This document shows, in pieces, positions 48,877-56,666 of a DNA stretch of 64,000 nucleotides (position 1 is its first letter; every line of letters starts with the position of its first letter). The position numbers and the translations under genes are program-made. The notes beneath the pieces are model-generated. The model was not told the DNA's origin, did no database searches, and was given only the letters and a program-made list of their open reading frames with translations. Source of the DNA: Neptunicoccus sediminis (GTDB lineage: Bacteria; Pseudomonadota; Alphaproteobacteria; Rhodobacterales; Rhodobacteraceae); contig NZ_MDVX01000001.1 of assembly GCF_001719615.1 (NCBI RefSeq), positions 558,001-622,000 on the forward strand. Direction: 5' to 3'.

Positions 48877-49647
48877 ATGACCCATTCCAGAAGAAGTTTT
48901 CTTAAGACCGGCGTCGCGGCAACGGGTGTTGTCTTTCTACCCTACGTGGTCGGGGCCGCAGCCCATGCCGGTAACGAATTTGCCACACAGTCCGGCACGC
49001 TGTCGGTGAACGCAGTGGCCCATGCCTCTATGGTGCTGTTGACGCCAGTGGGTACGATCCACGTCGATCCCGTGGGCGAAGTGGCGCAATACGCCGATTT
49101 CCCCGCGCCGGACCTGATCCTGATCACCCACCACCACGGCGACCATTTTAACGTGGATACGCTGAACGGGTTGGTGGCGGATGGCACGAAGCTGGTCACA
49201 AACCCTGAGGTTTACAACCAGTTGCCCGAAGCCTTGAAAGCCAAGGCCAGCCAGATCGCAAACGGTGAATCGGCCGAGTTTAACGGCATGTCGATTGATG
49301 CAATTCCGGCCCATAATCTGACCGAGGAGCGGATGAACTTTCACCCCAAAGGGCGCGACAACGGCTATGTGCTCGGGATTGACGGGCTGCGGGTTTATAT
49401 CTCTGGTGATACCGAAGACATCCCCGAGATGCGCGCGCTTGAGAATATTGACGTGGCCTTTGTCTGTATGAACCTGCCCTTCACAATGGACGTAGAGGCC
49501 GCGGCCTCGGCGGTGGCAGAGTTCAAGCCGAAATACGTCTATCCCTATCATTACCGTGGACGGGACGGGGGCACACAAGACCCCGAAGCCTTTGCCAAGC
49601 TGCTGAACGATGCAATCACGGTGAAGATGGGCGGCTGGTACGGCTAA
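48877..49647 (+). CDS. Tat-exported MBL-fold metallo-hydrolase
   Basis: The 256-residue protein begins with a twin-arginine signal (SRRSFLK, hydrophobic stretch to about residue 31) and has the metallo-beta-lactamase metal motif ITHHHGDHF near residue 87. A second metal-site segment DAIPAHNLT follows, and YPYHYRGRDGG near the C terminus. It resembles the UlaG-like lactonase branch, but the substrate is unknown. Start at MTHSRRS with GGGAGCCAGA upstream. A terminator follows. Confidence 0.9.
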   Translation: MTHSRRSFLKTGVAATGVVFLPYVVGAAAHAGNEFATQSGTLSVNAVAHASMVLLTPVGTIHVDPVGEVAQYADFPAPDLILITHHHGDHFNVDTLNGLVADGTKLVTNPEVYNQLPEALKAKASQIANGESAEFNGMSIDAIPAHNLTEERMNFHPKGRDNGYVLGIDGLRVYISGDTEDIPEMRALENIDVAFVCMNLPFTMDVEAAASAVAEFKPKYVYPYHYRGRDGGTQDPEAFAKLLNDAITVKMGGWYG

Positions 49648-49665
49648 GTCGAATGAACAGTTCTG

Positions 49666-49703
49666 AAAACCCCGTTGTGCCTTGGTGCAGAACGGGGTTT
49701 TTT
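49666..49703 (+). terminator. Intrinsic terminator after the metallo-hydrolase gene
   Basis: AAAACCCCGTT and AACGGGGTTTT form an 11-bp stem with a 14-base loop, followed by further Ts. Confidence 0.88.
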
Positions 49704-49770
49704 GCAGGTGGATCGGTGAGGCACGACCCGCATGGTGGCGTTTCCGGTCCCTGTTCTGCCGCGAATCCCG

Positions 49771-49799
49771 TTGCACGGAGGGGGCGGGCTGCTTATACC
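49771..49799 (+). promoter_or_regulatory. Promoter of the main cobalamin operon
   Basis: TTGCAC, exactly 17 bases, then TATACC: a good sigma-70 match. Transcription would start near 49806, giving a leader of about 130 bases before the first ATG at 49934. Confidence 0.55.
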
Positions 49800-49803
49800 T
49801 TGG

Positions 49804-49927
49804 CTAACGATGCCCCACAGGGGCCGGAAAGGTGTTTCGTCGGGGGCTGACCCAAATAGGGGGCCAAAGACGAGATCGTTAGAACGCTACATCCTGTGGC
49901 GGCCTTTCCGTTGCATAAAAGGAAGGG
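49804..49927 (+). promoter_or_regulatory. Structured leader RNA of the cobalamin operon
   Basis: Several exact pairings can be read: CTAACGAT (49804-49811) with ATCGTTAG (49875-49882); TCGTC (49837-49841) with GACGA (49869-49873); CCACAGG (49815-49821) with CCTGTGG (49893-49899); CGGAAAGG (49825-49832) with CCTTTCCG (49903-49910). The third and fourth pairs cross each other and the first, so they imply a pseudoknot or alternative folds. CCTTTCC (49903-49909) can also pair with the Shine-Dalgarno GGAAGGG (49921-49927). This suggests a switch that exposes or hides the ribosome binding site. It lacks the usual cobalamin-riboswitch core sequences that I know. Confidence 0.4.
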
Positions 49928-49933
49928 ACCGCA

Positions 49934-50155
49934 ATGCGATTTTCGGTATTTTTGACAGCAATTCTGGCCGCAACAGGGGCGAATGCCCATGTAGGGCATG
50001 TGGGCGAAGTGGCTTCCCATGATCATTGGGTTGCAGCCGGTGCGATCGGGGCGGCTGTTGCCATTGCGGGCTGGAACATCCTGAAAGGTCGCAAAAAGAA
50101 CAAAGCTGCCGAAGCGGAAAAAGCGGAGTCCGACGAAGCTCCGCAAGAAGCCTGA
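49934..50155 (+). CDS. Small exported membrane protein leading the cobalamin operon
   Basis: A 73-residue protein with a signal peptide ending near ANAHVGH, a His-containing stretch (HVGHVGEVASHDHW), one membrane helix (about residues 33-50) and a charged Lys/Glu tail. It ends 4 bases before cbiX. The histidines suggest metal contact, perhaps cobalt, but this is only inferred from context. I do not know a functional name. Confidence 0.75.
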   Translation: MRFSVFLTAILAATGANAHVGHVGEVASHDHWVAAGAIGAAVAIAGWNILKGRKKNKAAEAEKAESDEAPQEA

Positions 50156-50159
50156 TCTT

Positions 50160-51437
50160 ATGACGCAAAAAATCGGTGTAATGATTTGCGGTCATGGCTC
50201 TCGCAGCCAGTCCGCAGTGGATGAGTTTTCGGTGCTGGCAGAAAAACTGCCCGCGCTTCTGCCTGACTGGCAGGTGGAATACGGCTATCTGGAGTTTGCA
50301 AATCCGGTGATCCGCGTCGGGCTGGACAAGCTGCGGGATGCGGGGTGTGATCGTATTCTGGCGGTGCCCGGCATGTTGTTTGCGGCCATGCATTCTAAGA
50401 ACGATATTCCCACGGTGCTGAACACCTATGCTGTCAAAAACGGGATAGACGTGTCTTACGGGCGCGAGCTTGGGGTTGATCCCAAGATGATCGCCGCCGC
50501 GGGTGCGCGGATACAGGAAGCTGTGGATGCCGCCAATGCGGAACACGGCGAACTGCCGCTGGAAGATACGGCGCTGGTGGTGATCGGGCGCGGCGCCTCT
50601 GATCCTGATGCCAATTCCAACGTGTCCAAAATCGCGCGGATGCTTTGGGAGGGCATGGGCTTTGGCTGGTGCGAAGTGGGCTATTCCGGCGTGACCTTCC
50701 CGCTGGTGGAACCCTGTCTCGATCATGTCAGCCGTCTTGGTTACAAACGGGTTATCGTCTTTCCCTACTTCCTGTTCACCGGCATCCTGATTGACCGGAT
50801 TTACGGGTTCACGGACAAATGTGCTGCGAAATATCCCGATATTCAGTTCGTCAAAGCGGGGTATCTGAACGATCACCCGCTGGTTCTGGAGACCTTTGCG
50901 GACCGTGTGAAAGAACAGCTTGGCAGCACACCGGTGCCGAATTGTGGCATATGCCAGTACCGCACGCAGGTTCTGGCAATGGATGGCGGCGATACACGGG
51001 TTATCCCCGTCGAAGCCCGCCGCGCCGCCATGGGCGAGGATCATCCCGCCCTGTCAGAAGTGCCGCCGCCCACCTGTGTTCTGTGTAAATACCGCGCCCA
51101 GATCATCGGGTTTGAGGCTGAAGTCGGTGCAATTCAGGAAAGCCATCACCATCACGTCGAAGGGCAGGGTGCGCAGGCGCCGGGGTCCAATGTGTCGGAT
51201 TGCGGATTGTGTGGCGACTGGTGCACGGGGGAGTGTCGTCTCGATCTGGACCACCACCACCACCATCACGACCACAGTCATTCTCATGATCACGACCATG
51301 ACCATCATCACGATCACGGGCATCACCACCACGGTCATGATCACGGACATAGCCACGACCATCATCACGATCACGTCCATCCGGTCTACCCTCATGCCAA
51401 ACACCCGCTTGGCCCCGAAAGCGCACGCCGGAAATGA
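50160..51437 (+). CDS. cbiX: Sirohydrochlorin cobaltochelatase CbiX with Cys- and His-rich C terminus
   Basis: A 425-residue chelatase that inserts cobalt into sirohydrochlorin or a related early corrin precursor. The N-terminal 240 residues show two CbiX halves, starting with MICGHGSRSQSAVDEF and VIFPYFLFTGILIDR. After these come cysteine clusters NCGICQYR (about 261), TCVLCKYR (about 305) and CGLCGDWCTGEC (about 347), which could hold an Fe-S cluster. A histidine/aspartate-only stretch follows at about residues 364-405. The His-rich tail may store or deliver metal. Its stop overlaps cobH. Confidence 0.92.
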   Translation: MTQKIGVMICGHGSRSQSAVDEFSVLAEKLPALLPDWQVEYGYLEFANPVIRVGLDKLRDAGCDRILAVPGMLFAAMHSKNDIPTVLNTYAVKNGIDVSYGRELGVDPKMIAAAGARIQEAVDAANAEHGELPLEDTALVVIGRGASDPDANSNVSKIARMLWEGMGFGWCEVGYSGVTFPLVEPCLDHVSRLGYKRVIVFPYFLFTGILIDRIYGFTDKCAAKYPDIQFVKAGYLNDHPLVLETFADRVKEQLGSTPVPNCGICQYRTQVLAMDGGDTRVIPVEARRAAMGEDHPALSEVPPPTCVLCKYRAQIIGFEAEVGAIQESHHHHVEGQGAQAPGSNVSDCGLCGDWCTGECRLDLDHHHHHHDHSHSHDHDHDHHHDHGHHHHGHDHGHSHDHHHDHVHPVYPHAKHPLGPESARRK

Positions 51438-52099
51438 GAAACGGAGCCAAGCCACCGCGCCCTCTCCCGTATGAGAGGGAGCCGGCCGAGATTTACGCCC
51501 AGTCCTTTGCCACCGTGCGGGCCGAGGCCAGTCTGGACCGCTTTCCCGAAGAGATGCGCCCGATGGTGATCCGCTTGATCCACTCTTGCGGGATGGTGGA
51601 AATTGCGGATCGTCTGGCCTATTCCCCGAAGGCGTTTGCGGCAGCGCGCGATGCGCTGCGTGCCGGTGCGCCGGTGCTGTGCGATTGTGAAATGGTCGGC
51701 GCGGGGATTATCCGGCGCTATCTGCCGGCGGATAATGACGTGATTGTCACACTTAACGATCCGACTGTGCCTGATTTGGCACAGCGCATCGGCAACACGC
51801 GGTCCGCGGCTGCGGTGGAGCTGTGGAGCGACCATATCGAAGGCGCTGTCGTGGCAATTGGCAATGCGCCGACGGCGCTGTTTCATCTGCTGGAACTGCT
51901 GGATCAGGGCTGGCCGAAACCGGCCTGTATCCTTGGCTTCCCGGTGGGATTTGTCGGCGCCGCCGAGAGCAAGGCCGAACTGGCCGCCCGACCGCGGAAT
52001 TGCGATTTTGTGGCGCTGCGTGGACGCAAAGGTGGCTCTGCAATGGCGTCTTCTGCGGTGAATGCGCTGGCCGCCGGATTGGTAGAGGAAAAACAATGA
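51434..52099 (+). CDS. cobH: Precorrin-8X methylmutase
   Basis: The 221-residue enzyme moves a methyl group from C11 to C12 to give hydrogenobyrinate. It has the conserved RLIHSCGMVEIADRLAYS segment near residue 52, with the catalytic histidine, and DCEMVGAGI and GFPVGFVGAAESK near residue 175. ATGA overlap with cbiX, and its own stop overlaps cobL. Confidence 0.94.
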   Translation: MRNGAKPPRPLPYEREPAEIYAQSFATVRAEASLDRFPEEMRPMVIRLIHSCGMVEIADRLAYSPKAFAAARDALRAGAPVLCDCEMVGAGIIRRYLPADNDVIVTLNDPTVPDLAQRIGNTRSAAAVELWSDHIEGAVVAIGNAPTALFHLLELLDQGWPKPACILGFPVGFVGAAESKAELAARPRNCDFVALRGRKGGSAMASSAVNALAAGLVEEKQ

Positions 52100-55874: not shown

Positions 55875-56666
55875 ATGACAGTTTATTTTATTGGGGCCGG
55901 ACCGGGTGATCCCGATCTGATCACGGTCAAAGCCAAGGCACGGATCGAGTCCTGTCCCGTTTGCCTTTATGCCGGTTCGCTGGTGCCAGAGGCCGTGGTG
56001 GCCTGTGCGCCCGATGGGGCAAAGGTAATGGATACAGCCGTGATGACGCTGGACGATACCCACGCCGAGATAAAAGCCGCCCATGAGCGGGGCGAGGATG
56101 TGGCGCGGGTCCATTCCGGTGATCCCTCCCTGTACGGCGCCATTGCCGAACAGATCCGCCGGTTGCGGGCGGATAACATTCCCTTTGAAATCATTCCCGG
56201 TGTGCCAGCATACGCGGCGATGGCAGCGACTATCGGGCAGGAACTGACCATTCCGGAAATTGCGCAATCCATCGTGCTGACCCGCATGTCCATGCAATCC
56301 ACATCCATGCCAGCGGGCGAGACGCTGGAGAACTTCGGGCGCACAGGGGCAACGCTGGCGATCCATTTGGCGGTGCGCAACATGCGCGAGATCGAACGGC
56401 AGCTGGTGCCCCATTACGGCGCGGATTGTCCCGTGGTGGTCGGCTATCGTGTGGGCTGGCCCGATCAGGAAATCATTCGCGGCACCTTGTCAGACATCCG
56501 CATGAAAGTGCGTAAAGCCAAGATTACCCGCACTGCACTGATCATGGTGGGCCCCGCACTGGCAGAGAGCCACGATTTTGTTGATTCCGCGCTGTATGAT
56601 CCATCAAAACCCCATGTTTTGCGTCCGGTTACAGGCGTTGATCTGGTGGAGCCGAACAACACCTGA
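55875..56666 (+). CDS. cobM: Precorrin-4 C11-methyltransferase
   Basis: The 263-residue enzyme methylates C11. It has the GAGPGDPDLITVKA start, YAGSLVPEAVV, and RVHSGDPSLYGAIAEQIRRL near residue 78, and the VPAYAAMAATIGQELTIPE segment. It starts 22 bases after the fusion gene and is the last gene of the operon, with a terminator 25 bases later. cobK, usually next in the pathway, is not in the window. Confidence 0.95.
   Translation: MTVYFIGAGPGDPDLITVKAKARIESCPVCLYAGSLVPEAVVACAPDGAKVMDTAVMTLDDTHAEIKAAHERGEDVARVHSGDPSLYGAIAEQIRRLRADNIPFEIIPGVPAYAAMAATIGQELTIPEIAQSIVLTRMSMQSTSMPAGETLENFGRTGATLAIHLAVRNMREIERQLVPHYGADCPVVVGYRVGWPDQEIIRGTLSDIRMKVRKAKITRTALIMVGPALAESHDFVDSALYDPSKPHVLRPVTGVDLVEPNNT

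Follow-up and report, generated by a model that had tools for sequence, protein, structure and literature searches.

A conserved structured RNA in the leader of the cbiX/cob operon of Neptunicoccus sediminis and its apparent relatedness to the cobalamin riboswitch

The leader and its folded domain

The window, a stretch of 64,000 nt from the genome of Neptunicoccus sediminis, carries a B12 synthesis operon that opens with a gene for DUF6732 and continues with CbiX, CbiC/CobH and more corrin-ring genes (TP_methylase, CbiG) to about position 56666. The leader of 136 nt in front of this operon folds with a minimum free energy (MFE) of -55.2 kcal/mol, which corresponds to a z of -2.86 against dinucleotide shuffles, 1 of 200 shuffles being equally good. 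An earlier note on this DNA had proposed a new RNA switch here, and every stretch that it named was found in its place. The features are listed below in window coordinates; R1 denotes an 87-nt covariance model of the Rhodobacteraceae-type leader RNA and R2 a model built from the wider alignment A8, whose training rows include L261 and L237.

49771-49799, + strand: sigma-70-type promoter TTGCAC-17-TATACC (TTGCAC 49771-49776, TATACC 49794-49799), start predicted at about 49805-49807
49800-49886, + strand: conserved structured RNA domain, matched by R1 (80.7 bits) and R2 (56.2 bits)
49804-49811, + strand: 5' strand of P1, CTAACGAT, partner ATCGTTAG at 49875-49882; the conserved 5 bp are 49806-49810/49876-49880
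49812-49824, + strand: P2 hairpin, GCCCC-ACA-GGGGC
49825-49835, + strand: purine core CGGAAAGGUGU between P2 and P3, highly conserved by alignment column counts
49836-49841, + strand: 5' strand of P3, UUCGUC, partner 49869-49874; corresponds to P4 of the cobalamin riboswitch
49845-49865, + strand: P4 arm GGCU-GA-CCC-AAAUA-GGG-GGCC with a GA bulge
49869-49874, + strand: 3' strand of P3, partner 49836-49841
49875-49882, + strand: 3' strand of P1, ATCGTTAG, partner 49804-49811
49885-49901, + strand: candidate linker hairpin CGCUAC-AUCCU-GUGGCG, with weak comparative support
49899-49932, + strand: sequestor hairpin GCGGCCUUUCC / GGAAGGG-A-CCGC enclosing the Shine-Dalgarno (SD), from the MFE fold
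49903-49910, + strand: anti-SD CCUUUCCG (DNA CCTTTCCG), which may pair with the purine core (pseudoknot) or, instead, with the SD
49921-49927, + strand: SD GGAAGGG, from the sequence
49934-50155, + strand: first gene, DUF6732 (PF20506), a small His-containing protein, ATG at 49934
50160-51437, + strand: CbiX cobaltochelatase with a His-rich tail
51434-52099, + strand: CbiC/CobH precorrin-8X methylmutase

The promoter claimed in the earlier note is present in the sequence, and its position is shared by relatives. Among 97 non-redundant homologues, a TATA-like box begins 6-8 nt upstream of the motif start in 71 (raw count, at most two mismatches), and TTG precedes the TATA-like box at a spacing of 16-19 nt in 67 (raw count). 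A simple consensus promoter scanner reported no promoter in the leader, TTGCAC-17-TATACC falling below its threshold. Transcription is predicted to begin at the base of P1, and since the promoter keeps its position among relatives, the 5' strand with its pairing segments would stay in the transcript. Further upstream, at 49663-49704, a strong intrinsic-terminator-like hairpin (AACCCCGUU...AACGGGGUUUUUU) stands 3' of a gene of the metallo-beta-lactamase fold.

In the consensus structure, P1 closes a three-way junction with the hairpin P2 and the arm P3-P4. The 8-bp helix of CTAACGAT (49804-49811) with ATCGTTAG (49875-49882), which had been read from the letters alone, is this P1 and is backed by comparative data, as is the P2 hairpin. 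The leaders of DUF6732 homologues have in common the pattern GACGA-GCCC...GGGC-C(A/G)GANAGG...(U/C)GACCC...GGG...UCGUC. A long-range pair suggested together with P1, CCACAGG (49815-49821) with CCTGTGG (49893-49899), is present in the window, but the pairing is lost in close relatives (CCAAAGG in L035, CCATTGG in L036), and the complementarity is probably due to chance, since its first strand is the P2 hairpin itself. The linker hairpin seemed universal by eye and was rejected as a strong element; it is graded weak because stems of at least 4 are equally common in shuffles (91 of 97 leaders, with 91 expected), the mean MFE being -10.1 vs -8.8 in shuffles.

Covariation and distribution of the RNA

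The pairs of this structure covary in several alignments. A1, made with MAFFT only and not fitted to a model, holds 60 sequences; of 64 candidate sequences, L021 and L058 were left out as misplaced and L045 as a duplicate, together with L033 and L035, of which one is the sequence of the window and the other nearly identical to it. It has 19 consensus pairs, 13 of them with changes on both sides, and a covariation of 0.327 vs 0.158 in shuffled alignments, a value reached by none of 500 shuffles. Likewise, in the 100 rows of A4, which are fitted to R1, 94.9% of cells are paired, covariation is 0.364 vs 0.149 shuffled (0 of 500), and the GA bulge of the P4 arm is identical in 100 of 100 sequences. 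The wider alignment A8, with 27 rows including L261 and L237 (titled Rhodobacteraceae/Paracoccaceae), was chosen over a first version, A7, which was discarded with its Rhodobacteraceae rows out of register in P3. Covariation in A8 is 0.428 vs 0.236 shuffled (0 of 500); without L261 and L237 (A11) it is 0.429 vs 0.237 (0 of 500), and 18 of 23 pairs are changed on both sides. The shuffles for A1, A4, A8 and A11 leave the kinship among rows in place, and slid structures, used as a control, score at most 0.18. R2 matches the window RNA with an E of 1.2e-11. Where the earlier note had looked to homologous leaders for compensatory changes, these are present, and the leader is conserved. The leader contains a conserved, covarying, aptamer-like domain, as a riboswitch should, and conservation and covariation confirm it as a real, conserved, structured regulatory RNA.

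The RNA accompanies CbiX. Of 390 Rhodobacterales genomes, 119 have an R1 match, and the genome of the window has a single copy (80.7 bits). A strong CbiX (E<1e-20; next best near 1e-10) is found in 116 genomes of an equal order sample of 380, and 113 of these 116 have an R1 match; the remaining three (G435, G520, G635) have weak matches of 21.9-36 bits at the same place upstream of cbiX. The loci L181 and L182 of G435 and G520 are divergent CbiX loci in genomes with four CbiX matches each, and their RNA is very divergent (23.3 and 21.9 bits); six matches at E 0.27-0.93 from the same search were left unused. Six R1 genomes lie outside the 116, namely G510, with a rejected match, and five that are absent from the 380-genome sample. 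The matches G596:C1:902301 (32.9 bits) and G510 (27.9 bits) were rejected for their low score and position inside ORFs on the other strand. At the second CbiX locus of one genome (G396:C14, L184) the RNA was not found in about 1.4 kb upstream. A search with the leader DNA gave matches in just 13 of 101 relatives.

In an even sample of the class, R1 matched 4 of 289 genomes: that of the window, one of the family, G690 and one rejected. G690, whose order contains G690 alone, has the sole true R1 match outside the family in this sample, and the match precedes CbiX; a match of 29 bits outside the family, in G340 (L187), was rejected as lying inside an ORF. From 370 alphaproteobacterial CbiX loci the best 80 were taken, among them those of Roseibium, Stappia, Breoghania, Cohaesibacter, Afifella, SAR116 and others; the RNA is found in 73 of the 80, five of these being weak (L223 and L229, both rows of A8, R1 E 0.023; L259, E 0.011; L260, E 0.007-0.018; L266, E 0.085-0.095). 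Several of the best 80 loci are titled Rhodobacteraceae, and L248 and L265 at least resemble genomes already in the family set. The seven of the best 80 that had no match are L189, L190, L191, L193, L232, L239 and L249, L232 having only about 260 nt upstream. The CbiX of L190 (titled Anaerolineae) and L239 (Thiotrichales) is 76% and 65% identical to the alphaproteobacterial query, and both are perhaps mis-binned metagenome assemblies. In the wider loci the 3' end of the RNA lies 78-819 nt upstream of the CbiX match (median 342).

The gene that follows the RNA varies. A short protein pattern assigned the start codon at 155 motif instances, 135 to DUF6732 and 20 to CbiX, and five further DUF6732 starts placed by hand bring the set to 160 distinct motif instances; three duplicate motifs were dropped, and L079, L107 and L128 were omitted as copies of genomes already in. 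The first homologue loci had been picked via DUF6732, while those of the R1 scan of 390 genomes were not so picked. In L188 (Fodinicurvata) and L217 (Amorphus) the intervening gene is a full-length HupE instead of DUF6732 (HupE/UreJ permease at 1838-2452 and 1818-2405, respectively). DUF6732, for which openly licensed PMC papers contain no mention, resembles the start of HupE (HPGH...DH) and may be a shrunken HupE-like cobalt-handling protein.

Relation to the cobalamin riboswitch

In the Rfam search that the earlier note had suggested, no family came up to its gathering score over the whole window, nor did permissive settings for 49640-50160 yield anything credible. The sub-threshold matches near the leader (F6, Zeta-pan, sR47) are due to chance or to the upstream terminator hairpin, which is the source of the F6 match. 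Similarly, no Rfam family matched in 18 homologous loci, where the cobalamin riboswitch model RF00174 (gathering 31.5 bits) had no match at the motif at E<=10. Among 40 wider loci scanned, of which 34 carry the RNA, RF00174 reached gathering in one, Fodinicurvata L188, where the same stretch matches RF00174 (46.8 bits) and R1 (39.0 bits). In this RNA, the counterparts in the cobalamin riboswitch are P2 for P2, AAAAGGGAA for the purine junction, P4 with its L4 for P3, and the CUGCC that follows P4 for the 3' strand of P1.

The likeness is reciprocal in the wider set. Of 22 canonical cobalamin riboswitch loci, R2 matches 14 at E<=10, the best with 29 bits (E 5e-6) and 8 with at least 18 bits, and misses the other 8; a search of 354 kb gave no R2 match at E<=0.1 outside the expected places. 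Conversely, R3, a model from 22 canonical cobalamin-riboswitch 5' halves, was run on 57 sources (370 kb), and each of its 7 matches with E<0.01 falls on the cbiX-leader RNA. The half in question comprises P2, the purine junction and P4-L4. R3 had no match on the window RNA or on seven other Rhodobacteraceae leaders given to it, so the link of the Rhodobacteraceae to the cobalamin riboswitch runs via R2, which does match the window, and the intermediates; the Rhodobacteraceae leaders tested with R3 are the most derived. Visual comparison shows an L4 arm resembling the P4 arm in part of the order's canonical riboswitches. Going by these model comparisons, the leader RNA appears to be a relative of the cobalamin riboswitch's 5' half. 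Canonical cobalamin riboswitches occur in 377 of 380 order genomes; in the genome of the window they precede CbtA and an ABC transporter whose periplasmic-binding protein is a weak match, and both (L001 1501-1720, L002 1501-1720) have a long insert in L4.

The other half is not recognisable. The B12 box was sought as the best ungapped match out of 14 positions, a measure that misses boxes with an indel, against its consensus. The 68 wider CbiX-RNAs gave 7-11 of 14 and the 160 Rhodobacteraceae RNAs 7-12 of 14, which is chance level (7-10 in 68 shuffles); all 21 canonical controls, taken from high-scoring RF00174 matches, gave 13-14. L188, which passes RF00174, reaches just 10 of 14, its box having an indel. 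With the box at chance level, the known cobalamin pocket cannot be complete. Moreover, the distance from P1 to the start codon is tens of nt in most Rhodobacteraceae, too little room for P5, P6 and the B12 box; this short distance and the three-way junction consensus also leave little room for the four-way junction P3-P6 and the L5-L13 kissing loop. As to the suggestion of a divergent cobalamin class, relatedness to the 5' half appears to stand and membership does not: with no recognisable B12 box, the RNA is a derivative of the cobalamin riboswitch and not a member. The B12 box is named as a conserved feature in PMC11260477.

A probable switch at the Shine-Dalgarno and its possible readings

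The MFE fold of the window places the SD inside a long hairpin. Two competing pairings had been pointed out, CGGAAAGG (49825-49832) with CCTTTCCG (49903-49910) and CCTTTCC with the SD GGAAGGG, and comparative data back both, the latter through the linker-SD permutation test. For these tests, cores were taken from alignment columns and partners permuted 5000 times, 2 of 100 rows being dropped as too short. In 97 non-redundant Rhodobacteraceae leaders, core-linker pairing has a z of -6.2 (0 of 5000 permutations; 68 of 97 leaders beat their own median), with a modest effect per sequence (means of -14.6 vs -13.2 kcal/mol), and linker-SD pairing a z of -4.5 (0 of 5000; 64 of 97). Core-downstream pairing in 53 wider leaders gives -3.1 (7 of 5000; 34 of 53), and without the titled rows -2.8 (18 of 5000; 32 of 50). 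Single core/downstream pairs include GAAAGCG/CGCUUUC and GAAAACG/CGUUUUC. These values supersede those from text-pattern cores (z -5.0 and -4.0 with 97 rows, z -3.4 with 48 rows; 17 of 160 motifs dropped, and 3 of 68 in the wider set), the pattern having misplaced some cores. Mutually exclusive pairings at the SD, a further property of riboswitches, are thus present as a predicted layout, with complementarity above the permutation controls and a modest effect.

On balance, the RNA is probably a switch descended from the cobalamin riboswitch, a translational OFF switch that probably responds to a corrinoid. Its direction is deduced from the biosynthesis operon and the SD/anti-SD/purine anti-anti-SD logic, and its most likely ligand is a corrinoid, followed by cobalt or a precursor. 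From the ancestor it would have kept P2, the purine junction and P4 as a hairpin bearing an L4 arm, while the B12 box would have been lost, and presumably the P5/P6 part too, given the short space before the gene. P1 would have been rewired into a compact three-way junction closed directly after P4. The purine core may then serve as anti-anti-SD, and the downstream pyrimidine strand as anti-SD, the alternative partner of the SD. With no ligand, the core would hold the anti-SD and the cbiX/cob operon would be translated; the corrinoid end product would stabilise the junction and occupy the core, and the freed anti-SD would cover the SD and turn translation off. More tentatively, the RNA may form a compact (about 75-90 nt) riboswitch class of its own that arose when a cobalamin riboswitch was truncated and rewired. 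The purine junction and the invariant GA bulge would then house a separate pocket, possibly for another ligand (cobalt, a corrin precursor, an incomplete corrinoid), and the class would control early-cobalt corrin synthesis across Alphaproteobacteria.

The earlier note had left three options side by side, namely a switch for a different ligand, a divergent class of cobalamin riboswitch and a protein-binding leader; this broad reading is supported, and the divergent cobalamin option fits best. A sensor of cobalt, another metal or an early intermediate (e.g., sirohydrochlorin), in which the lost B12-binding half has given way to a pocket newly formed at the three-way junction and the GA bulge and tuned to the CbiX substrate, would account for the way the RNA tracks both CbiX, which is a cobalt chelatase, and a first gene that is HupE-like or DUF6732, and for the unrecognisable B12 box. 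Canonical riboswitches before transport genes of the same genome would also make a second corrinoid sensor redundant. However, such a sensor is unlikely in view of the relatedness to the cobalamin riboswitch, and the genome of the window has no second copy before other metal genes. Rather improbable is a leader to whose folded RNA a protein binds, perhaps one encoded in the operon, so as to block translation: the RNA persists where cbiX comes first and DUF6732 is absent, and it is apparently related to a ligand-binding riboswitch, even if the one gene context fits autoregulation and 135 of 155 pattern-assigned instances, with 5 more placed by hand, have DUF6732 in first position.

Two readings stay closer to the parent family. 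An ordinary cobalamin riboswitch that Rfam missed because of its divergence would share the 5' half, as the leader seems to, and the Fodinicurvata RNA is above gathering score; yet the ungapped test finds no B12 box, the tens of nt from P1 to the start codon are too few for P5, P6 and the box, and P1 pairs with a different 3' strand, which makes this reading very improbable. A decaying, non-functional relic of such a riboswitch, as the loss of the hallmark box might suggest, is hardly credible, being contradicted by the strong covariation, by the GA bulge, which all 100 sequences compared have in identical form, and by the retention of the RNA in 113-116 of 116 strong-CbiX genomes.

Should a switch descended from the cobalamin riboswitch be the right reading, the B12 synthesis operon of many alphaproteobacteria would be controlled by an RNA that standard annotation misses. 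A riboswitch deprived of its signature half would still be under selection, with Fodinicurvata as an apparent intermediate, and the way in which an aptamer shrinks or switches ligand would become testable. Among these bacteria are marine groups that provide other plankton with B12. In the titles and abstract starts of openly licensed PMC papers, nothing was found on an alphaproteobacterial RNA ahead of cbiX or DUF6732, and the switch is probably undescribed so far.

Several known systems invite comparison. The AdoCbl-variant RNA (RF01689), a marine RNA that expands the collection of AdoCbl riboswitches (PMC2864571), differs in that its Rfam model has no match in the window or in 18 homologues. 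The SAM/SAH riboswitch (RF01727) of Rhodobacterales is likewise small, order-restricted and tied to one gene context (PMC2864571), but this context is metK, and its Rfam model has no match in the window. Two other Rhodobacterales motifs are associated with ccoNOQP and cysS (PMC8632094). The ppe2 RNA of M. tuberculosis is a compact B12 riboswitch, a proposed member of Class IIb, and an OFF switch built of a TIR, an anti-TIR and a purine anti-anti-TIR (PMC11260477). The leader RNA resembles it as a small translational switch with an SD, anti-SD and purine anti-anti-SD layout, whereas ppe2 retains the B12 box and a possible kissing loop (PMC11260477). The cobalamin riboswitch itself (RF00174, clan CL00101) is set apart by the leader RNA having no recognisable B12 box, being much shorter and pairing its post-P4 sequence back to the 5' strand as P1. 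The two serve the same pathway and seem to share the P2 hairpin, the purine junction, P4 (which in the wider set has GGUGC...AA(U)CCGG) and the L4 arm (by eye, in some canonical ones of the order), and L188 fits both models.
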